Of a stretch of 64,000 nucleotides of DNA, positions 1-56,336 are shown piece by piece. The DNA is from Methylocaldum sp. 14B (GTDB lineage: Bacteria > Pseudomonadota > Gammaproteobacteria > Methylococcales > Methylococcaceae), in contig NZ_MSCV01000028.1 in NCBI RefSeq assembly GCF_002005105.1, positions 1-64,000 on the forward strand, in the 5' to 3' direction. Position numbers and translations under genes: made by a program. The number at the start of each line of letters is the position of its first letter. Within the stretch, counting starts at the first letter, position 1. The notes beneath the pieces are model-generated. The model was not told where the DNA came from and made no database searches. It worked only from the letters and a program-made list of their open reading frames with translations.

Positions 1-232
1 GAGTGTTTTTCAACCCGGTGTACGGATTCGTGTCGGGCGGGAAGAACGTAGATCGGCAATCCCTTGCCGACTTATCGGCTCGGCAACGGACTTTGTGGGA
101 AGGGGCGTCCTGGCGCTCCCAGGACGGCCTTTTGCGATTGGAAGGGTCGCGACTAAAGCGACCGTTTGCGATTGGGAAGGGATTGCCGACCTACATATCG
201 GGCTCCCTGATACCGGATCGGAAAATGCTCTA
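1..232. repeat. MITE-like composite repeat, TAGAGC family (type 2, left end cut by window)
   Basis: The right end reads GAAAATGCTCTA (221-232). The left end begins GAGTGTTTTTCAACC, an imperfect inverted partner whose first bases lie outside the window. The same outer sequences bound the element at 50702-50893. Inside are two palindromic units, 98-139 (42 bp, arms CGTCCTGG/CCAGGACG, loop CGCTC) and 140-173 (34 bp, arms GGTCGC/GCGACC, loop GACTAAA), followed by the recurring GATTGCCGACCTAC. Any ORF here is a by-product of the repeat. Confidence 0.75.
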
Positions 233-831: not shown

Positions 832-1190
832 TAGAGCATTTTTATACCTACTGTACGGGCATTCGCGCGTAGGTCGGGAATCCCTTCCCAATCGCAAACG
901 GTCGCTTTAGTCGCGACCCTTCCAATCGCAAACGGCGTCTTCGGGAGCGCCGAAGCCGCCCTTCCCGACGCCGCCGTTGGGCCAACGGGTTTGTCGGCAA
1001 AGGATTGCCGACCTACGAATGTAGCACCCTGTAGGTCGGGAATCCTTTCCCGACGCCACGTCCCGGCCGAGCGTCTTCGTAGGCAAAGGATTGCCGACCT
1101 ACGAAAGCTTGAGTCGATCTACCCTGGCCGAAGGCGCCAACGACTCCTGCCAGGCCTGTTTTGCCGTACGAGCGAGATGAAAACGCTCTA
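832..1190. repeat. MITE-like composite repeat, TAGAGC family (type 1)
   Basis: It starts TAGAGCATTTTTATACC and ends GATGAAAACGCTCTA, an imperfect terminal inverted pair. Internally it carries a host hairpin (arms GTCGGGAA/TTCCCGAC) interrupted by two reverse-oriented palindromic units, 890-923 (34 bp) and 924-965 (42 bp, arms CTTCGG/CCGAAG). It also holds uninterrupted copies of the GTCGGGAA/GTCGGCAA hairpins at about 1036-1055 and 1083-1103. Close relatives lie at 7278, 17815 and 40153. A 12-bp inverted repeat (CTAAGTACATTC, 1188-1199 and 1281-1292) starts at the right end. Confidence 0.8.
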
Positions 1191-6819: not shown

Positions 6820-6950
6820 CGTCACCCCGGCATGGAAGGGGCCGACTAAAGGCCCGTTTGCGATTGGGACTGCCGGGATCCAGGTTACAAGGATGTAGAG
6901 GGCCGGCCATCCTTGGCCTCTGGATTCCGGCACTCCCTGCCGGAATGACG
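6820..6950. repeat. Inverted-repeat element CGTCAYYCCGGCA, with an inserted palindromic unit
   Basis: The region is bounded by CGTCACCCCGGCA (6820) and TGCCGGAATGACG (6950) as inverted ends. The left hairpin is split by a 32-bp palindromic unit at 6834-6865 (arms GGGCC/GGCCC, loop GACTAAA, tail GTTTGCGATT). Internal GGCCGGCCATCCTTGGCC and CTGGATTCCGG form further palindromes. A related element lies inside 61296-61760. Between this element and 7277 the only structure I see is a run of CCTGTCCTGAGC/TCGAAGGG repeats at about 7079-7125. Confidence 0.65.
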
Positions 6951-7277: not shown

Positions 7278-7600
7278 TAGAGCATTTTCATACCGACTGT
7301 ACGGGCATTCGCGAGTAGGTCGGCAATTCCTTCCCAATCGCAAACGGCGTCTTCGGGAAGGGGCTGGCCGGCGCTCCCGGCCAGGCCGTTTGCGATTGGA
7401 AGGGTCATCCCAGCGCTTCTGGGATGACCGTTTGCGATTGGAGCGTCGAAGCCGCACTTCCCGACAGTGCAGTTGGGCCAACGGCTTCGTCGGCAAAGGA
7501 TTGCCGACCTACGAAGGCTTGAATCAATTTACCGTCGCCGAAGGCGCCAACGACTCCTGCCAGGCCTGTTTTGCCGTACGAGCGAGATGAAAACGGCCTA
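7278..7600. repeat. MITE-like composite repeat, TAGAGC family, with units nested in a loop
   Basis: Left end TAGAGCATTTTCATACC at 7278; right end GATGAAAACGGCCTA at 7600, where the usual GCTCTA has changed to GGCCTA. Inside, a reverse-oriented 42-bp unit (7336-7358 plus 7440-7461) is split in its loop by two forward units, 7356-7397 (arms CTGGCCGG/CCGGCCAG) and 7398-7439 (arms GTCATCCCAG/CTGGGATGAC). The final CTA is the complement of the TAG stop codon of the desaturase gene. Confidence 0.8.
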
Positions 7601-15762: not shown

Positions 15763-15911
15763 TAAGCCGCTTTTGACCGATAGCGCTCTGATTCCAGATC
15801 CCTTTCAATCAGGCGTTCATTTTCGTAGGGTGGGTTAGGCGCACATCAGCACCAACCGACCGCCGATCACTGCGCTTCGCGTGCGCCGTAACCCGCCGAG
15901 CGACCTTCCAT

Positions 15912-16023
15912 CGGCGGGTTACGCGGAGCCTGTCCTGAGCCTGTCGAAGGGCCTGTCCCGAGCGGAGACTAGGGGCTAACCCGCCATCGATGGGTTTCGC
16001 TTCGCTCTACCCATCCTACGATG
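15912..16023. repeat. Palindrome-rich intergenic repeat, inverted copy at 47237-47346
   Basis: About 110 bp is nearly identical, in inverted orientation, to 47237-47346. It contains TCGGCGGGTTACGCGG, two overlapping CCTGTCC(T/C)GAGC/TCGAAGGG motifs, CTAGGGGCTAACCCGCC and CGATGGGTTTCGCTTCGC, ending CTACCCATCCTACGAT. The arms around it (GTAGGGTGGGTTAGG at about 15826 and CCCATCCTACG) form a larger imperfect palindrome. It fills the gap between yjdM and the Nudix gene; no coding potential is evident. Confidence 0.65.
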
Positions 16024-16112
16024 AATGTTCACTCGAATGCCGAATGGAATTGCGCCGGGATTTCGCAAAGCTTCCATCCCGGCCTACAGGCTCTATCGAT
16101 TCCGGCTCTCGT

Positions 16113-17814: not shown

Positions 17815-18085
17815 TAGAGCATTTTCATATCTACTGTACGGGCACTCGCGAGTAGGTCGGGAATCCCTCCCAATCGCAAACGTCGCTTTAGTCGCGACCT
17901 TCCAATCGCAAACGGCGTCTTCGGGAGCGCCGAAGCCCCCCTTCCCGACACCACGTCCCGGCCAAGCGTCTTCGTCGGCAAAGGGTTGCCGACCTACGAA
18001 TGCTTGAATCCATTCACCCGAGCCGAAGGCGCCAACGACGTCCGCCAAGCTGGTTTTGCCGTACGAGCGCGATGAAAACGCTCTA
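17815..18085. repeat. MITE-like composite repeat, TAGAGC family (copy nearly identical to 40153-40424)
   Basis: It is bounded by TAGAGCATTTTCATATC and GATGAAAACGCTCTA. It carries two reverse units, 17872-17903 (32 bp) and 17904-17945 (42 bp, arms CTTCGG/CCGAAG), inside a GTCGGGAA/TTCCCGAC hairpin, then an intact GTCGGCAA/TTGCCGAC hairpin. By eye it differs from the inverted copy at 40153-40424 at about eight positions, while the flanking DNA is unrelated. Confidence 0.85.
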
Positions 18086-18254: not shown

Positions 18255-18479
18255 GGAAGGGGCGTCCTGGCGCTCCAATCGCAAACGGTCTGGCCGGGAG
18301 CGCCGGCCAGACCCTTCCCAGGACGGCCGTTTGCGATTGGAAGGGGGACTTTGGTGCTCCCAAAGTTCCCGTTTGCGATTGGAAGGTCGCGACTAAAGCG
18401 ACGTTTGCGATTGGAAGGGTCGCGACTAAAGCGACGTTTGCGATTGGAAGGGTCGCGACTAAAGCGACCGTTTGCGATT
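18255..18479. repeat. Tandem array of six palindromic GTTTGCGATT units, one nested in another
   Basis: In order: a 42-bp unit (18255-18276 plus 18319-18338, arms CGTCCTGG/CCAGGACG) split in its loop by a reverse 42-bp unit (18277-18318, arms GGTCTGGCCG/CGGCCAGACC); a 42-bp unit (18339-18380, arms ACTTTGG/CCAAAGT); then 32, 33 and 34-bp units (18381-18412, 18413-18445, 18446-18479) with arms GTCGC/GCGAC and loop GACTAAA. The array ends in GGGAAGGAATTGCCGACCTAC. It lacks TAGAGC ends. It has no protein-coding sense and no unique spacers, so it is not CRISPR. Confidence 0.85.
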
Positions 18480-18525
18480 GGGAAGGAATTGCCGACCTAC
18501 TTACCCCCGAATTTCGACATGCTGC

Positions 18526-27111: not shown

Positions 27112-28383
27112 CTACTCCAATCGCAAACGGTCATCCGGGGAGCGCCCGGATGCCCCTTCCAATCGCAAACGGTCATCCGGGGAGTTCCCGGATGACCCTT
27201 CCACCGCGATGGCGGCCAAGGTGCCGCCGCTGGTATAAACGTAGATGACGTCGTCGAACACGACTGGCGTCGCCGCGATTGGGCTCTTGTCCACCCTGAC
27301 CCGGCCCACCAAGCTGCCATCCTCCTGGGAAAGCAGATGGAGATAGCCCTCGAAATCACCTACCACGACATAGTCCTTGACCAAAGCGGGAGCCGTCAAA
27401 CGCCGGAAGTGCAACTCGTCCTGTTTCCACAGATCGGCGCCATTGCGCACGTCCAATTGCCAAACATCGCTGCTGGCGTCGGTTACGAACAGCGAGCGGC
27501 GGGCCGCCGCCATGCCGGTGTAAGAAGATAGTTCGGCCTGGCGCCAGAGCACGTCGCCGTCTTTTAACGATACGGCGGCCACGCCGCCTTGATAACCCGT
27601 CACGTAGATGGTGTCTCCTTTCACGATCGGATCGGAATCCATATCGACCAAACGCTCTATTTCGGAGCGACCGTGGGGCAACGCAATCGTCGCCTCCCAT
27701 TCCGGTTTGCCGTCAGTCAAATTCAGGGCGATCAGCTTGCCGCTGCCATAACCGTCCAGCACGAAATCGTCTGCGATTGTCGGCGAACCACGGCTGCGAA
27801 TCGAAAGTGCCGGTATCGTCCGGTCATGGTACCAGCGCGTCCCACCGGTATTTTCGTCGAGCGCGGTAATGCGCCCGTCGCTGCTCCGTATCACCACCGT
27901 GTCGCCTTCGACGCGCGGCAAGGCGAGAATCTCGCTGGACACGTTGGTTTTCCAAAGCACCGAACCGTCGCCGTCATTCAGCGCCACGATCTCGGCGTTG
28001 CTGGTGCCGAGTATGAGCTTGCCCTCACCCGCCACGGGTCCGGCGGAAACGGCCAGCTCAATATCCACGGACCACAGCTTGTCGCCGTTGAGACGGCTGC
28101 GCGCCTGAACTTCGCCCTTGCGGTCGGCCGCGAAAATCTTGTCTTCGGTGACGGCGGGAACCAGGTTCACATATTGCTCGGCATAACCTTTGCCGATATC
28201 GACATCCCAAAGCACCGTCATCTTGACCGCGGGCTCGAAATCTTTGAGCTCCGCGGGCGGGTCGGCATTATCCGAAGCTCCGAAGTACTCTCCTATACCG
28301 GAGGCTGCTTCTTTCAGTGGACCAAGCGCACTACAGCCGGTCAGCAGCAGACCGCACAAAAACAAGACCAGAAAACGGCGCAT
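27112..28383 (-). CDS. bamB: Outer membrane assembly lipoprotein BamB with repeat-encoded tail
   Basis: The protein is 423 residues. The lipoprotein signal peptide has lipobox LTGC (about residues 15-18). An eight-bladed beta-propeller with PQQ-like repeats (SRLNGDKLWSVD, NDGDGSVLWKTN, LTDGKPEWEA, KDGDVLWRQ) follows. BamB supports beta-barrel insertion by BamA at the outer membrane. The native protein should end ...GGTLAAIAVE; here two in-frame 42-bp palindromic units add GSSGNSPDDRLRLE and GASGRSPDDRLRLE before the stop. The ATG overlaps the yfgM stop as TGATG, and der follows at once. Confidence 0.95.
   Translation of the reverse strand: MRRFLVLFLCGLLLTGCSALGPLKEAASGIGEYFGASDNADPPAELKDFEPAVKMTVLWDVDIGKGYAEQYVNLVPAVTEDKIFAADRKGEVQARSRLNGDKLWSVDIELAVSAGPVAGEGKLILGTSNAEIVALNDGDGSVLWKTNVSSEILALPRVEGDTVVIRSSDGRITALDENTGGTRWYHDRTIPALSIRSRGSPTIADDFVLDGYGSGKLIALNLTDGKPEWEATIALPHGRSEIERLVDMDSDPIVKGDTIYVTGYQGGVAAVSLKDGDVLWRQAELSSYTGMAAARRSLFVTDASSDVWQLDVRNGADLWKQDELHFRRLTAPALVKDYVVVGDFEGYLHLLSQEDGSLVGRVRVDKSPIAATPVVFDDVIYVYTSGGTLAAIAVEGSSGNSPDDRLRLEGASGRSPDDRLRLE
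27119..27202. repeat. Two 42-bp palindromic units inserted in frame in bamB
   Basis: Units lie at 27119-27160 (arms CATCCGGG/CCCGGATG, loop CGCTC read on the gene strand) and 27161-27202 (arms GTCATCCGGG/CCCGGATGAC, loop AACTC). TCC flanks them (27116-27118). Each unit is 14 codons and keeps the frame open; deleting both leaves GCG GTG GAG TAG, a natural bamB end. They also lie between the bamB stop and the der start region, so the hairpins could affect coupling of the two genes. Confidence 0.9.
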
Positions 28384-40152: not shown

Positions 40153-40424
40153 CTAGAGCGTTTTCATCGCGCTCGTACGGCAAAACCGGCTTGGCGGACG
40201 TCGTTGGCGCCTTCGGCTCGGGTGAATTGATTCAAGCATTTGTAGGTCGGCAATCCTTTGCCGACGAAGACGCTCGGCCAAGACGTGGTGTCGGGAAGGG
40301 GGGCTTCGGCGCTCCCGAAGACGCCGTTTGCGATTGGAAGGTCGCGACTAAAGCGACGTTTGCGATTGGGAGGGATTCCCGACCTACTCGCGAGTGCCCG
40401 TACAGTAGGTATGAAAATGCTCTA
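40153..40424. repeat. MITE-like composite repeat, TAGAGC family (inverted copy of 17815-18085)
   Basis: The ends are TAGAGCGTTTTCATC and ATGAAAATGCTCTA. Units lie at 40294-40335 (42 bp) and 40336-40367 (32 bp). It is nearly identical to 17815-18085 in inverted orientation, within an intergenic stretch between rhs and iscA that otherwise has no gene. A separate hairpin of TAGGAGCCTA...TAGGCTCC type lies at about 40531-40603. Confidence 0.85.
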
Positions 40425-46609: not shown

Positions 46610-47209
46610 TTGAAGAGCATTTGCGTATTCTGCGGTTCCAACCCCGGCAAGCGCCCCGAATACCGGATCGCTGCCGAAACCTTGGGCCGGCTGCTGGCCG
46701 AAAAAGGTTTGGAACTGGTGTATGGCGGCGGGACCGTGGGTCTCATGGGCATTCTGTCGAGTGCCTGCCTTGCGGCCGGAGGACGGGTGATCGGCATCAT
46801 CCCGAAAGCTTTGATCGGCCGCGAGGTGGCAGGACGAATGGTGGAACACACCAGCCTTACCCGGCTGGAAGTGGTAGATTCGATGCACACCCGCAAAGCC
46901 CGCATGGCAGAAATCGCAGATGGCTTCATCGCGCTGCCCGGAGGTTTCGGAACCTTCGAGGAGCTGTTCGAAATCCTTACCTGGGCCCAACTTGGATTTC
47001 ATCGTAAGCCGATCGGACTTCTCGATGCGGAAGGCTACTACGAACCTCTCCTAAGCTTGTGCGATCGGGCGCTCGCGGAGGGCTTCATGAAACCCGAGAG
47101 CAGAAGGCGGCTGCTGGCCCATACCGACCCGGAAATGCTCCTGGAGGCCCTGGCCGCATATCAGCCCGAACCGGTCATCCCGTGGATTCGGGACGAGAGG
47201 CAGCTGTAA
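46610..47209 (+). CDS. LOG family protein (TIGR00730 Rossmann fold)
   Basis: This 199-residue protein starts at a TTG with GAGGTGA five bases upstream. It has a Rossmann-like opening ICVFCGSNPGKRPEY, YGGGTVGLMG and the hallmark PGGFGTFEELFE (about 105-116), with the MHTRKARM catalytic region before it. Members act as cytokinin riboside 5'-monophosphate phosphoribohydrolases or more general nucleotide glycosidases. It lies 88 bases after the oxoprolinase gene; linkage is possible but unproven. Confidence 0.92.
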   Translation: MKSICVFCGSNPGKRPEYRIAAETLGRLLAEKGLELVYGGGTVGLMGILSSACLAAGGRVIGIIPKALIGREVAGRMVEHTSLTRLEVVDSMHTRKARMAEIADGFIALPGGFGTFEELFEILTWAQLGFHRKPIGLLDAEGYYEPLLSLCDRALAEGFMKPESRRRLLAHTDPEMLLEALAAYQPEPVIPWIRDERQL

Positions 47210-47236
47210 TTCCATTCGGCATTCAAGCGGACATTA

Positions 47237-47346
47237 ATCGTAGGATGGGTAGAGCGAAGCGAAACCCATCGATGGCGGGTTAGCCCCTAGTCTCCGCTCG
47301 GGACAGGCCCTTCGACAGGCTCAGGACAGGCTCCGCGTAACCCACC
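47237..47346. repeat. Inverted copy of the 15912-16023 repeat
   Basis: Reads TCGTAGGATGGGTAGAGCG...CGATGGCGGGTTAGCCCC..., then CCTTCGACAGGCTCAGGACAGG and CTCCGCGTAACCCACCGA. It is nearly identical in inverted sense to 15912-16023. From here to 47479 I see nothing else. Confidence 0.65.
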
Positions 47347-47479
47347 GATTCGAGGTTGCCACACCTGAATTCAATTGAAAGCTACGCGCTGAGAAGCTCC
47401 GGAGCGTAATGGCTGCCCCGGTTCGTGGCGAGCCTCAGCCCTCAAGTGAAAGGCGCATGAAAGTGAAAGGGACAGGCAG

Positions 47480-50701: not shown

Positions 50702-50893
50702 TAGAGCATTTTCCGATTCGGTGTCAGAGAGCCCGATATGTAGGTCGGCAATCCCTTCCCAATCGCAAACGGTCGCTTTAGTCGCGACCCTTCCGACAAA
50801 ATCCTTTGCCGAGCCGATAAGTCGGCAAGGGATTGCCGACCTACGTTCTTCCCGCCCGACACGAAGCCGTACATCGGGATGAAAAACGCTCTA
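50702..50893. repeat. MITE-like composite repeat, TAGAGC family (type 2)
   Basis: The left end TAGAGCATTTTCCGATTCGG and right end GATGAAAAACGCTCTA match the outer sequences at 1-232. It contains one 34-bp unit (50761-50794) and a GTCGGCAA/TTGCCGAC hairpin. The 120 bases to its left (50580-50700) hold decayed pieces of similar hairpins and a CCTGAGCGAAGCCGAAGGG motif. Confidence 0.75.
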
Positions 50894-51014: not shown

Positions 51015-51135
51015 GTATAGGATGGGCTGAGCCTGCGCAGCCCATCGATCGCGAACGATGCCTGTCCTGAGCCCAGTCGAAGGGCCTGTCCTGAGCGAGT
51101 CGAAGGGCGCTTCCCGATGGTCGGCACATCCTACG
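51015..51135. repeat. Palindrome-rich repeat TAGGATGGGC...CATCCTACG
   Basis: Outer arms GTATAGGATG and CATCCTACGG enclose GGGCTGAGCCTGCGCAGCCC, GATCGCGAACGATG and two CCTGTCCTGAGC/TCGAAGGG units. It is related to 35047-35124 and 15912-16023. Confidence 0.5.
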
Positions 51136-52105: not shown

Positions 52106-52732
52106 ATGAAAACTCTGTGGATAATCGTTTGCCTAGTCGCTTCGTGCCTTGCCTGGGGAAGCGCGCATGCTCTACCGACGCTGCAGGTGACTAACGGCAT
52201 ATTGACCGGGGCCACCGGCGTCGAAGTCACCGTCAACAACGTGACCACGCTATACGATGTCACATTTCAGGGTGGGACCTGTGCCGGGTTGTTCAGCGGG
52301 TGCGATTCCAGCAACGATTTCGTGTTTAAGACGGAAGGGGAGGCATTGGCCGCCTCGCAAGCCTTATTGGACCAGGTCTTTTTGGACGGGGCCTTTGGCG
52401 CCTTCGATTCCGCCCCGGATACAACCGCGGGGTGCTCAGATTTCGTTCTTTGCATGGTGCTGACGCCCTATGATTTTGGGCTCACCGTAGGCGGGTTGGC
52501 CGATGTGGGTTTTGCACAAAATCTGTTTGGCCCGTTGGACGACGTTTCTGGTCTCCTGATTGTTTCCCCCTCGGACGACCTAACTTCCGAAAGCTTCATC
52601 TATGCCGTGTGGTCCCGCGTACCGACCAACAACGTCCCGGAGGCGCCGTCACCGGCGCTGGTGGGGGCGGGCATGATGGCCTATGCCGTTTTCCGCCGCC
52701 GGAGTTCGAGTCAGCGCAACCGCGCTCGGTAA
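52106..52732 (+). CDS. Exported PEP-CTERM-like protein
   Basis: This 208-residue protein starts at the ATG of MKTLWIIV, giving a clean signal peptide (1-22, cleavage after AHA). The mature region is polar, glycine- and aspartate-rich, with two pairs of cysteines (TCAGLFSGC and GCSDFVLC). The C-terminus VPEAPSPALVGAGMMAYAVFRRRSSS has the tripartite sorting-signal layout (VPEx motif, hydrophobic helix, arginine cluster) of PEP-CTERM proteins, processed by an exosortase encoded elsewhere. Function unknown. It lies upstream of the RTX gene but 620 bases away. Confidence 0.75.
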   Translation: MKTLWIIVCLVASCLAWGSAHALPTLQVTNGILTGATGVEVTVNNVTTLYDVTFQGGTCAGLFSGCDSSNDFVFKTEGEALAASQALLDQVFLDGAFGAFDSAPDTTAGCSDFVLCMVLTPYDFGLTVGGLADVGFAQNLFGPLDDVSGLLIVSPSDDLTSESFIYAVWSRVPTNNVPEAPSPALVGAGMMAYAVFRRRSSSQRNRAR

Positions 52733-52816
52733 GTTCGACCAACAAGCTTCACACGCGCTGCGAGTCATCTGCGCGCGATATCCGAACCCGTGGTTGGGGC
52801 CGGGCGAGACGGGTGG

Positions 52817-52884
52817 GGAAGGTCGCGATTAAAGCGACGTTTGCGATTTGGAAGGGGTGGCGATTAACGCCACCGTTTGCGATT
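52817..52884. repeat. Two tandem palindromic GTTTGCGATT units
   Basis: Units at 52817-52849 (arms GTCGC/GCGAC, loop GATTAAA) and 52850-52884 (arms GGTGGC/GCCACC, loop GATTAAC). The second has different arms but stays paired, and both loops carry a T where other copies have C. The remaining stretch to 53351 shows no gene; AAGGAG just before 53352 is the ribosome site of the RTX gene. Confidence 0.8.
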
Positions 52885-53351
52885 GATTCGGCCAGTGCGC
52901 CGACCGCCGGGACTCGTCGCCACGATAGGTTCTTTTGGGTGACCGGGATGCCACACAAGGGTTTCGTAAAAAAATCGCGACGCAACGCTGGATTTTTTGA
53001 ACCTTTCTCGCTCGGAGGGAGAAATACCGATACAACGCGCCAGTGGGAGGTGCGGCGGGCGATGTCATGGCTGGGCCGGATAAACCGGCAAGCGCTTCGA
53101 GATCAGGGCCATGAAAGGGATGATCGGCCATGGCTCCGTTCAGGTTCTTGTGAGTGTACCGCCGGAGTTAGTCCGAGCGAAATCGGGAGGCGGGCCGAAA
53201 CGATGATCCGGCACCGCATTTTGAGCCGAATCCCGATAAGAAGTTTCGGATGGAGCCGGATTAGGACGGGGCGTTCAATCCTTAACCCTAGTCCACCGAA
53301 ATTTCATACGGCGTTATCGAGTGATCATCAAAAATAATTAAGGAGAAAACC

Positions 53352-56336
53352 ATGGGTATGTCCAACCTCGGCCGGAAACAGCCGGTACCCGCACCAGAAG
53401 TGCTTGCATTGGATCAGCTACCGTTCCGAGCCCCCTCGGAGAGCGGTCTGTCGACCGAAGATGTCCGACCGCTCGCTCTTACCGCAAGCGCAGACATCAC
53501 CGCCCAGACGGTCACCGGAACGTTCACACCTTCCACCGGGGTTCTGACGGCACTCGGTGATGCATTCGACAACACGATCGAATTCAGCCGCAATGCGGCC
53601 GGAACCATTCTCATCAATGGCGGCGCCGTTCCGGTCGGGGGCGGTACCGCGACCGTCGCCAACACGAGCCTGATTCAGGGATTTGGGCTGGGCGGAAACG
53701 ACACCATCACGCTCGACGAAACAAACGGTGCTTTGCCCCGCGCCAACCTTTTCGGCGGCACGGGAAACGACACGCTGACCGGCGGCTCGGGCGGCGACCA
53801 GCTCTTCGGGCAGGCGGGCGACGACGTCCTCTTCGGCAAAGGCGGCGTCGACTTTCTGTTCGGCGGTTCTGAAAACGATACGCTGACCGGCGGCGACGGC
53901 GATGACCAGATGTTCGGCGAGGCCGGCAACGACCGTATGATCTGGAACCCGGGCGATGACAGCGATCTGATGGAGGGCGGAACCGGCATCGATACCGCGG
54001 AAGTGAACGGCGGCAACGGCGCCGAGGTGTTTACGGTAACCGCCAACGGATCGCGCGTCCGTTTCGATCGCCTCGACCCGGCCCCTTTCGCACTCGATAT
54101 CGGCACGACCGAGAATCTCGTCGTCAACATGAACGGCGGTAACGACACGTTTTCCGCAACCGGCAATCTAGCGACCCTCATCCAGATCACTGTCGACGGC
54201 GGCGCCGGCGACGACACGATCCTGGGCAGCAACGGCGCCGACGTTCTCCTGGGCGGCGACGGCGACGACTTCATCGACGGTCAGCAGGGCAACGACGTCG
54301 CCTTCCTCGGCGCCGGCAACGACGTATTCCAGTGGGATCCGGGCGACGGCAGCGACACCGTCGAAGGCCAGGCCGGCTTCGATACGATGCTGTTCAACGG
54401 CAGCAACGTGGCCGAGAACATCGACATCGCCGCCAACGGCGGCCGCGTGCGCTTCTTCCGCAACGTCGGCAGCATCACCATGGACCTGGACGACGTCGAG
54501 CGGATCGATTTCAGGGCGCTGGGCGGCGCGGACAACATCGTGGTCAACGATCTGTCCGGCACGGACGTGACCGAAGTCAACATCGATCTCGCCGGAACGC
54601 TCGGCGGAGCGGCGGGCGATGGGCAGGCCGATACGGTGGTCACGAACGGCACGGGCGGCAACGACATCATCGACGTGTTCGGCGCCGGGACATCGGCGTC
54701 GGTGGTCGGACTGGCGGCGCAGGTTAACATCGCCAACAGCGAAGGCGCCAACGATTCGCTCGTCATCAACGGCGGGGCAGGCGACGACGGGATCACTGCG
54801 ACCACCCTCCCGGCGGGCGTGATCAAGCTCGTGATCGACGGCGGCGCCGGCAACGACACGATCCTGGGCAGCCAGGGCGCCGACGTCCTCCTGGGTGGCG
54901 ACGGTGACGACTTCATCGACGGCCAGCAGGGCAACGACGTCGCCTTGCTCGGCGCCGGCAACGACGTGTTCCAGTGGGATCCGGGCGACGGGAGCGACAC
55001 CGTCGAAGGCCAGGCCGGCTTCGACACGATGCTGTTCAACGGCAGCAACGCGGCCGAAAACATCGACATCGCCGCCAACGGCGGCCGCGTGCACTTCTTC
55101 CGCAACGTCGGCAGCGTCACCATGGACCTGAACGACGTCGAACAGATCGATTTCAACGCGCTGGGCGGTGCCGACAACATCGTGATCGGCGATCTCAGCG
55201 GGACGGACGTCACTCAGATCAACATCGACCTGAGAGGCACCGGCGGGGGCGGCGACGGCGCGGCGGACACGGTCACGGTGAACGCCACGAATGGCGCCGA
55301 CGTGTTCGGCGTCGCGGGCGATGCCGGCGGAATTACCGTCTTCGGTCTGCCGAGCCAGGTGAACATTTCCGGCCAGGAGGTTGCGAACGATCGGTTGACG
55401 CTCAATGGTCTTGGCGGGGATGACGTCATCGATGCTACCGGTCTGGAGGCTGGCGCAGTCCAACTGACGATGAACGGCGGCCTCGGCGCCGACGTTCTAC
55501 TCGGCAGCGAAGGGGACGATCTGTTCAACGGCGGAGACGGCAACGACCTCGCAATCATGGGCGCGGGCGACGACACCTTCGTCTGGAATCCGGGCGACGA
55601 CAACGACATCCTCGAAGGCCAGGCCGGCTTCGACACCATGCTGTTCAACGGCGCGAACGTCAGCGAAAACATCGATATCTCCGCCAACGGCGGCCGCGCG
55701 CGCTTCTTCCGCGACGTCGCCAACGTCACCATGGACCTGGACGACGTCGAGCGGATCGATTTCAGGGCGCTGGGCGGCGCCGACAACATCGTGGTCAACG
55801 ATCTGTCCGGCACGGACGTGACCGAAGTCAACATCGATCTCGGCGCTTTCGGCGGCGGTAGCGACGGCCAGGCGGACACCATCTTCGTCAATGCGACCCA
55901 GGGGGACGACGTCATAATCGTCGTGGGCGATGGCAACGGAGTCTCCGTGCTGGGTCTTGCGGCCCGGATCAACATCACGAATTTCGACCCGACAATGGAC
56001 CGCCTCGTGATCAACGGCCTCGCCGGCGATGACGTGATCGAGGCGTCGGGGTTGACGGTGGGCAGCATCCAGCTCACAGCCAATGGCGGCGATGACGACG
56101 ACGTGCTGATCGGCGGTGACGGCAATGACGTGCTGCTCGGCGGCGCCGGCGACGACGTGCTGCTGGGTGGCGCCGGACTCGATGTGCTCGACGGCGGCAC
56201 CGGGGACAACGTTGTGATCCAGAGCCTGGTGAGCGGTTCGACCACGGAGGGTGCCGGGATTGCCCCTCTGGGTATTCCGGAGATCAGCCTGGTGGGCGTA
56301 GGCGCGGAGCTGCAACAGAACGAGTTTCTGATCTAG
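53352..56336 (+). CDS. RTX-repeat (hemolysin-type calcium-binding) exported protein
   Basis: This 994-residue, acidic protein has no signal peptide and an excellent ribosome site (AAGGAG). After a 120-residue N-terminal region it has nonapeptide calcium-binding repeats (GGTGNDTLTGGSGGDQLFG, GGDGDDQMFGEAGNDRM), then three long modules of about 212 residues starting near 278, 494 and 706. Each module combines GGxGxD repeats, an AGFDTMLFNG..AENIDI strand region and an ALGGADNIVV.DLSGTDV segment. It ends with further RTX repeats (GGAGDDVLLGGAGLDVLDGG) and a hydrophobic tail EFLI. It is almost certainly the substrate of the type I secretion system encoded next. No enzymatic domain is visible. Confidence 0.9.
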   Translation: MGMSNLGRKQPVPAPEVLALDQLPFRAPSESGLSTEDVRPLALTASADITAQTVTGTFTPSTGVLTALGDAFDNTIEFSRNAAGTILINGGAVPVGGGTATVANTSLIQGFGLGGNDTITLDETNGALPRANLFGGTGNDTLTGGSGGDQLFGQAGDDVLFGKGGVDFLFGGSENDTLTGGDGDDQMFGEAGNDRMIWNPGDDSDLMEGGTGIDTAEVNGGNGAEVFTVTANGSRVRFDRLDPAPFALDIGTTENLVVNMNGGNDTFSATGNLATLIQITVDGGAGDDTILGSNGADVLLGGDGDDFIDGQQGNDVAFLGAGNDVFQWDPGDGSDTVEGQAGFDTMLFNGSNVAENIDIAANGGRVRFFRNVGSITMDLDDVERIDFRALGGADNIVVNDLSGTDVTEVNIDLAGTLGGAAGDGQADTVVTNGTGGNDIIDVFGAGTSASVVGLAAQVNIANSEGANDSLVINGGAGDDGITATTLPAGVIKLVIDGGAGNDTILGSQGADVLLGGDGDDFIDGQQGNDVALLGAGNDVFQWDPGDGSDTVEGQAGFDTMLFNGSNAAENIDIAANGGRVHFFRNVGSVTMDLNDVEQIDFNALGGADNIVIGDLSGTDVTQINIDLRGTGGGGDGAADTVTVNATNGADVFGVAGDAGGITVFGLPSQVNISGQEVANDRLTLNGLGGDDVIDATGLEAGAVQLTMNGGLGADVLLGSEGDDLFNGGDGNDLAIMGAGDDTFVWNPGDDNDILEGQAGFDTMLFNGANVSENIDISANGGRARFFRDVANVTMDLDDVERIDFRALGGADNIVVNDLSGTDVTEVNIDLGAFGGGSDGQADTIFVNATQGDDVIIVVGDGNGVSVLGLAARINITNFDPTMDRLVINGLAGDDVIEASGLTVGSIQLTANGGDDDDVLIGGDGNDVLLGGAGDDVLLGGAGLDVLDGGTGDNVVIQSLVSGSTTEGAGIAPLGIPEISLVGVGAELQQNEFLI
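54190..56110 (+). repeat. Three tandem ~640-bp modules inside the RTX gene
   Basis: Module starts lie near 54190, 54832 and 55467, a period of about 635-642 bases. Modules 1 and 2 share long identical stretches (for example around 54340-54420 and 54982-55062); module 3 matches module 1 best around 55620-55850. Such identity within one gene points to recent duplication or conversion. Confidence 0.8.

Follow-up and report, generated by a model that had tools for sequence, protein, structure and literature searches.

The SDRs of the cyanobacterium Nostoc (Elhai et al. 2008) are reportedly very small hairpins of 21-27 nt that show compensatory changes and are nested in themselves and in other repeats, and an RNA intermediate is said to have been proposed for them. 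Rickettsia palindromic elements (RPEs) are about 150 bp long and come from Rickettsia, according to PMC10969869. The palindromes of the REP/REPIN/RAYT systems are small and intergenic, at times intragenic, and are likely moved by single-strand Y1 enzymes (PMC8266576, PMC3116915); REPs lying inside other palindromes are known as well (PMC3733652). For the Y1 enzymes, PMC8266576 describes transposition of single strands and guide pairing. How the smallest bacterial repeats (REP, RPE, SDR) move is still an open question.

We analyzed a 64-kb stretch of DNA of Methylocaldum sp. 14B, here called the window, which carries many copies of a short palindrome with the feet GGAAGG and GTTTGCGATT. The results indicate that the unit is a very small non-autonomous mobile hairpin of the window's genus and of some relatives. 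Among the matches listed from the open-access literature (titles and abstracts), no published description of the family was found, and the word 'palindrom' occurs 0 times in the Methylocaldum genus paper (PMC10974252). Below, G000 is the window's own genome and G001, G002 and G003 are congeners.

Unit anatomy and pairing of the stems

The original prediction, made from the window, listed about 24 palindromic copies in eleven intervals and divided them into two size classes. Our count also gave 24 units, and all eleven intervals contain units. Of exact GGAAGG-N-GTTTGCGATT form are 21 of the 24; the unit at 98-139 has the tail TTTTGCGATT in place of GTTTGCGATT (T for G at the tail start), and two are outer units, at 7336-7461 and 18255-18338, each split by other units. 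With at most one mismatch, GTTTGCGATT occurs 28 times in the window, compared with 5.9 +/- 2.3 times in shuffles (largest 15). No Rfam match (0) was obtained in the window. The units and their hosts are as follows.

98..173, plus strand: two tandem units in a GTAG-REP, one of 42 bp (98-139, tail TTTTGCGATT) and one of 34 bp (140-173)
890..965, minus strand: two tandem units in a GTAG-REP, one of 42 bp (924-965) and one of 34 bp (890-923)
6834..6865, plus strand: one 32-bp unit, lying in a hairpin loop (CCCCGGCA/TGCCGGGA)
7336..7461, minus strand: 42-bp unit, loop split by two plus-strand units (7356-7397 and 7398-7439)
17852..17871, plus strand: left half of the host GTAG-REP (GTAGGTCGGGAATCCCTCCC), adjoining the units at 17872-17945
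17872..17945, minus strand: two tandem units in a GTAG-REP, one of 42 bp (17904-17945) and one of 32 bp (17872-17903)
18255..18338, plus strand: 42-bp unit, loop split (CCTG^GGAGCG, bottom strand) by a minus-strand 42-bp unit (18277-18318)
18339..18479, plus strand: four more tandem units (42, 32, 33 and 34 bp), detected as a tandem repeat, then the GTAG-REP right half (18480-18500)
27119..27202, minus strand: tandem pair of 42-bp units in frame with bamB, at the 3' end of the gene; the insertion is clean (GCGGT^GGAGTAG)
27112..28383, minus strand: bamB (outer membrane assembly factor), last 28 codons unit-derived; the TIGR03300 match ends at residue 392
40294..40367, plus strand: a 42-bp and a 32-bp unit in tandem within a GTAG-REP
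50761..50794, minus strand: single 34-bp unit in a GTAG-REP
52817..52884, plus strand: two units (32 and 35 bp, one T between them) in a module common to a phage contig
61336..61367, plus strand: one 32-bp unit, lying in a hairpin loop (CCCCGGCA/TGCCGGGG)

Other repeats were seen in the window. G003 contains at least 20 partial copies of the repeat at 15788-16051 (about 260 bp), and G001 contains many; by eye this repeat is unrelated to the units. That at 47205-47360 (about 150 bp) also has many copies in G003 and G001, at places which are partly the same. At 51060-51108 there is a 24-bp repeat, GCCTGTCCTGAGCCCAGTCGAAGG, which gives ten successive matches in steps of 48 bp near position 5584184 of G003. 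The large open reading frame at 53352-56336, with 27/54-bp tandem repeats of the GGxGxD kind, may encode an RTX-type calcium-binding protein.

The two size classes were borne out by 249 units from fetched stretches of seven genomes: 151 measure 42 bp, 56 measure 34 bp and 36 measure 32 bp, while six are of 33, 35 or 41 bp, with two 33-bp copies each in G000 and G017. The stem of the 42-bp class consists of 10 variable pairs and a nearly constant G-C at its base, and its loop is CGCTC in 116 and TGCTC in 26 of the 151 units. Short units have 4-5 variable pairs and a loop near GACTAAA. The feet GGAAGG and GTTTGCGATT are common to both classes, their invariance being imposed by the search pattern. 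When three units were folded as DNA, both strands had energies below the mean of the shuffles (z -1.7 to -3.1); for all three, the top strand had the lower energy.

The arms of a unit are clearly matched to each other. Among 82 distinct 42-mers, own arms were 87.8% Watson-Crick, whereas arms re-dealt among the set reached 55.8% (maximum 61.2%); the excess over shuffled controls that had been sought for the arms is present. Standard pairs made up 93.0% of the cells, compared with 71.6% after shuffling. Doubly changed paired cells numbered 215, against 58.3 +/- 8.9 in 500 shuffles (0/500 as high) and at most 61 in slid registers, counts that are not independent as the 42-mer sequences are related, although nearly unrelated stems (GTCATCC.., GGCTGGCC.., GGGACTTT.., ATCGGTT..) coexist in one genome. 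The number of pairs with any double change (9 versus 7.8) lay within the shuffles (90/500). The statement that the arms usually stay paired holds for standard pairs and double changes, but perfect stems are a minority: 19 of the 82 are fully Watson-Crick, and 63 contain one or more non-Watson-Crick pairs. A recurring G.A mismatch is common to several stem types. Some units are hybrids with mismatched arms, and one such arm combination would be the product expected of a deletion inside a nested pair (locus L109 compared with the G002 hybrid). On the top strand, G.T was found in 37 cells and A.C in 12, or 15 and 8 when collapsed by family, so that the G.T excess is only a lean after the collapse.

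It had been suggested that the stem is renewed, one arm being copied from the other during hairpin replication (template switching), which would keep new stems perfect. Template-switch correction of quasipalindromes is established. The second bamB unit of G001, with decayed ends and a perfectly compensated stem (GTCATCCGAG/CTCGGATGAC), is what renewal would give. However, at the bamB site the stem type GTCATCCGGG/CCCGGATGAC and close variants are present in all four congeneric genomes (two units in G000, one in G003, two in G001 and one decayed unit in G002), and identical stems recur at many loci and are shared across species and two genera; stems are inherited at this orthologous site. Moreover, non-Watson-Crick pairs are kept in the 63 distinct 42-mers noted above, and the stem GTCATTCGGG/CCCGGATGAC contains a T.G pair bridging the C-G and T-A forms within one family, an intermediate of stepwise change. 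Renewal as the general rule is accordingly improbable, and any arm-to-arm copying would be occasional. The stems are inherited families which drift stepwise under selection for pairing, and are not renewed at each move.

Target sites, empty sites and distribution

Readable flanks were available for 153 arrays, of which 105 are not preceded by another unit; these represent 83 distinct contexts, those within one host repeat family not being independent. The right flank is GGAR or GGGA in 69 of the 83 (44 GGAR, 25 GGGA), against a background of 1.2%, whatever the stem, and the idea that the stem acts as an address is therefore not supported. The 14 contexts without either word include GAAC, GATT and GAGG. 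Most insertions abut GGAR directly on its 5' side, and neither duplication nor loss of target sequence is detectable, a 3-bp GGA duplication being indistinguishable from element-borne GGA at most sites. Sites with a non-GGA right flank keep GGA on the left, where the search pattern requires it, and this speaks against duplication mildly at most.

The 155 arrays were assigned to hosts by simple patterns, which are rough. GTAG-REPs contain 55 of them, and 26 are at the loop of the unit itself; two further hairpin repeats account for 12 and 8, and the other 54 are elsewhere. Tandem units join at their own GGAA, and nested units at their own loop (GGAG, bottom strand). The context was closed by a stem of at least 7 bp in 12 of the 83 cases, compared with about 2.3% when flanks were re-dealt; hairpin loops are favoured as sites, not required. 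In GTAG-REPs, insertion is into the 5' part of the palindrome (GTCG^GGAAGGG), not its loop.

A possibility is that the units have no mobility of their own, being parts of GTAG-REP/REPIN composites, and that they multiply solely along with these composites and by tandem slippage. The 55 arrays in GTAG-REPs (rough pattern) are in its favour, as are some composites found again between the same left and right flanks, one context as often as nine times. Many G000 copies may indeed have spread as passengers of GTAG-REP pairs. A 182-aa Y1 gene of G003 (L184 1908-3140), embedded in arrays of GTAGGTCGG REP pairs with no unit, is likely the RAYT of these host GTAG-REPs. But units also lie in unrelated hairpins, the fetched arrays of G005 and G017 show no GTAG-REP host by the same pattern, and there are clean insertions in genes, as described below. 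We regard the absence of own mobility as a poor explanation, with little chance of being correct.

Occupied and empty sites were compared at five orthologous gene sites, and all show insertion. First, a unit is present in bamB in 4/4 congeneric genomes and in none of 8/8 loci read from other genera; at the boundary (..GT^GGAGTAG), five of the eight empty loci have GGAR and three have GGAC, GGAT or GCAA. In 13 further genomes the bamB alignments end at residues 393-398, which is ahead of the unit-coded part or barely within it. Secondly, an error-prone DNA polymerase gene of G000 (NF004225, 1489 bits) has three units, one of them nested, which add 126 bp in frame. This site is empty in 6/6 relatives read (G001, G002, G003 and three further genera), the insert boundaries being ambiguous by five bases because the target itself reads CGATTGGAA in G002. 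Thirdly, a traC-like gene is GAAAA[42 bp]GGAGAAATCCC in G005 and empty, GAAAAGGAGAAATCCC, in G000, exact to the base. Fourthly, a trbC/traW-like gene has two units in G000 and is empty in G005 (AGAAT^GGAATAC), with a less exact right edge since about 20 bases after the insert differ between the two genomes. Finally, an HSP70-like gene contains two units in G005, one of them decayed, and is empty in G000; its right flank, GGAC, is outside the GGAR rule.

Host repeats without a unit were observed too: the sites CCCCGGCAG^GGAATGCCGG and CTCCCTCTG^GGAGA have the empty forms CCCCGGCAGGGAATGCCGG and CTCCCTCTGGGAGA. Among GTAG-REP ends in G000 stretches, which were chosen around units, 101 were empty, 47 filled and 7 other. 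Taken together, the precise empty sites in relatives and the empty host repeat copies agree with the proposal of a mobile palindrome: units have inserted at new places in recent and in older times, and cleanly. Such base-exact occupied and empty sites between methanotroph genera are of value, as clean donor/target pairs are otherwise rare.

A genome-wide search, as the original prediction had recommended, was performed with GGAAGG-N12-32-GTTTGCGATT. It gave 244 exact units in the whole G000 genome (137 and 107 per strand) and 0 with the reversed control pattern. The same loose pattern matched 20 (G001), 22 and 64 times in the three congeners, one of the 20 being visibly no unit. Elsewhere in the family, two genera gave 16 and 13 matches (the latter in G017) and another gave one. 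A stricter pattern, GTTTGCGATTGGAAGG, matched in 7 of 41 genomes, G000 included. Spread outside the family was considered and rejected: besides G000, 6 of 369 genomes of the class match the loose pattern, once each and with no paired stem by eye, and these look like chance because the reversed control hits 5 genomes. On the Sulfuritalea contig L047, the match resembles one 32-bp unit, yet lies inside an open reading frame; those on L051 and L052 are bare 18-mer matches.

Viral contigs gave 10 matches, including one true unit, which lies on phage contig L220 between a tail-sheath gene and a neighbour gene with no assigned function. A 92-bp stretch including this unit matches the window at 52761-52852 by 90%, and the other flank by 74%. 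This one example suggests that phages may carry units. The module around the two units of the window (52713-52988) is partly common to L220, beyond the units on both sides. Among 50,697 records of annotated phages and 72,556 of plasmids, none matched the 141-base array at 18339-18479.

In G001, two places near C1 positions 1348564 and 2242101 (L149 and L154) have one and the same unit between almost identical flanks, and a gene or insertion sequence that was duplicated seems to have carried it. In G017, 5 of the 13 pattern matches of the 4.4-Mb chromosome lie within about 42 kb (C1:2190073-2231951), near a Y1 gene at 2234983. No replication strand bias was found in G003, where a hand count gave about 8 plus and 10 minus arrays on one side and 12 and 12 on the other, with the origin assumed at base 1.

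The conserved hairpin, the covariation and the regular tandem spacing might also reflect a functional RNA or DNA structure kept by the host, such as a terminator, a protein-binding site or a CRISPR-like array. This would hardly agree with a presence that varies between species, with 'spacers' (the stems) that are self-complementary and repeated, with the Rfam result in the window or with units inside coding frames, and it seems most improbable.

Units inside genes and a candidate route of movement

The 42-bp unit corresponds to 14 codons and is stop-free in the frame used, while the short classes, except for the 33-bp copies, are not multiples of three. An open frame of at least 200 residues beyond the array length runs into or through 40 of the 155 arrays, chance frames included. 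In G005, 8 of 11 such arrays are read in one frame, giving EGSS..RS..DRLRL; the in-frame peptide in recognisable genes is EGSS..RS..DDRLRL. The shared frame is partly due to phase alone: of 3624 GGAR words in long open stretches, 2138 begin at codon position 3. A Pfam family was matched in 9 of 10 unit-containing proteins scanned from two genera, and the host families are BamB, DNA polymerase III alpha, TrbC, HSP70-related, TraC, MMPL, HlyD-type, TraI_2 and Cas_NE0113. This amounts to in-frame decoration of genes by a palindrome outside Rickettsia, including that of an error-prone DNA polymerase.

The reading that we prefer, with a probability of roughly 0.55, is that the unit is a complete, tiny non-autonomous element (GGAAGG, a hairpin with free stem and class loop, and GTTTGCGATT) moved by a Y1-type single-strand route. 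An enzyme supplied in trans would read the terminal sequences and the presence of a hairpin on single-stranded DNA, not the stem sequence. The bottom strand would be cut after YTCC, a word that forms the flank of the target as well as the end of the element itself (YTCC^AATCGCAAAC-hairpin-CCTTCC^), and the unit's own GGAA and loop would serve as new targets. Such cutting would resemble that of the Y1 (HUH) transposases of the IS200/IS605 and REP (RAYT) kind. The same word 5' of both cuts is the layout of IS200/IS605-family Y1 enzymes.

Y1_Tnp genes were found in all six genomes with at least 10 units, among 13 genomes searched. Genomes that lack units can have them too, and G016, with its single unit, gave no Y1 match. 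None of 30 Y1 loci (with 1.5-kb flanks where the contig allows) carries a unit, one tail match in L061 being no unit; in 19 further stretches, units were present only in L134 and L138, both of which had been fetched for their units. The fetched stretches of G000 include five Y1 genes; four of them have their nearest unit at 245, 1341, 2510 and 3855 bp, and the fifth has none. Among the Y1 genes inspected, a subset, none was bracketed by units. The nearness may belong to the host repeat, as the 245-bp unit is in a CCCCGGCA hairpin and the 1341-bp one in a REP. The Y1 gene with the unit 245 bp away inside the CCCCGGCA hairpin is that of L089 4439-5066 (G000:C4:82438-83065). The ends of three IS200/IS605-like families of G003 were compared with the unit and are unrelated to it. 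In L176 (2197-2824), an IS200-like element directly adjoins a seemingly decayed unit (TTCCAACCGCAAACGG). Against a Y1 enzyme, the G.T excess and the top-strand folding lean to the strand opposite the predicted cut.

A shared neighbour gene was also sought. When 1511 flanking ORFs, many of them mechanical, were clustered, no transposase was recognised by eye among the 40 widest clusters; those listed include an ABC-type family near 8 loci in 5 genomes, synteny-like sets and repeat-made ORFs.

Alternatively, the unit might be transcribed, folded and inserted as an RNA copy, by a reverse transcriptase or a reverse-splicing-like step, its 3' CCUUCC base-pairing to GGAR at the target site. For the cyanobacterial SDRs, an RNA intermediate was reportedly proposed; top-strand stems allow G.T more than A.C, and clean sites and nested copies fit. 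Reverse transcriptases were found in 10 of the 13 genomes searched; their presence in 6 of 7 carriers counts in favour. Yet the carrier G001 gave no RVT_1 match and has 20 pattern matches (one no unit), and the G.T excess is on the top strand, whereas GGAR pairing would need a bottom-strand RNA. We consider the RNA route rather unlikely.

A wider formulation can be offered tentatively, at less than even odds: a fully bounded transposon of 32-42 nt, recognised by its ends and by the presence of a hairpin, with base-exact empty sites and among the smallest, whose stem is free to evolve, which a single-strand enzyme would move, and whose 14-codon class would be an in-frame peptide inserter. The system has a defined target word and a stem of unconstrained sequence; most carriers have 1-22 copies, and the counts reach 64 and 244. 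With clean sites, the target word and the free stem, the cleavage site, the active strand and the end requirements are testable with short oligonucleotides.

Comparison with described repeats

The units share with the SDRs, as these are reported, compensatory changes in a conserved hairpin and nested copies, 26 of the 155 arrays ending at the unit's own loop by the rough pattern. They differ from them in size (32-42 bp), in sequence and in hosts.

Like GTAG-REPs and REPINs, the units are small palindromes. However, their feet are GGAAGG and GTTTGCGATT, with no GTAG/CGTC tag; their stem is not fixed; no unit-bracketed Y1 gene was found among those inspected; and the GTAG-REPs are themselves hosts of the unit. 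With the IS200/IS605 family and its non-autonomous derivatives (PMC8266576 for part of the features), the units have in common the lack of detectable target duplication, one-sided insertion beside a fixed short word and a hairpin. In contrast to that family, there is one hairpin instead of two ends, and no matching ends were found in the three G003 families.

The likeness to RPEs on which the original prediction had drawn has been strengthened, as the 42-bp unit also inserts in frame in genes. RPEs are palindromic repeats that insert, with the reading frame kept, into unrelated protein genes, to which they contribute a conserved peptide (PMC10969869, PMC3733652). The Methylocaldum unit is set apart from them, by description and not by sequence, in its size of 32-42 bp, its occurrence in Methylococcaceae, its GGAR site, its self-nesting and its freely varying stem. 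By analogy, then, the unit appears to behave like Rickettsia palindromic elements and like the cyanobacterial SDRs; we place it among the miniature palindromic mobile repeats, outside REP, RPE and SDR.
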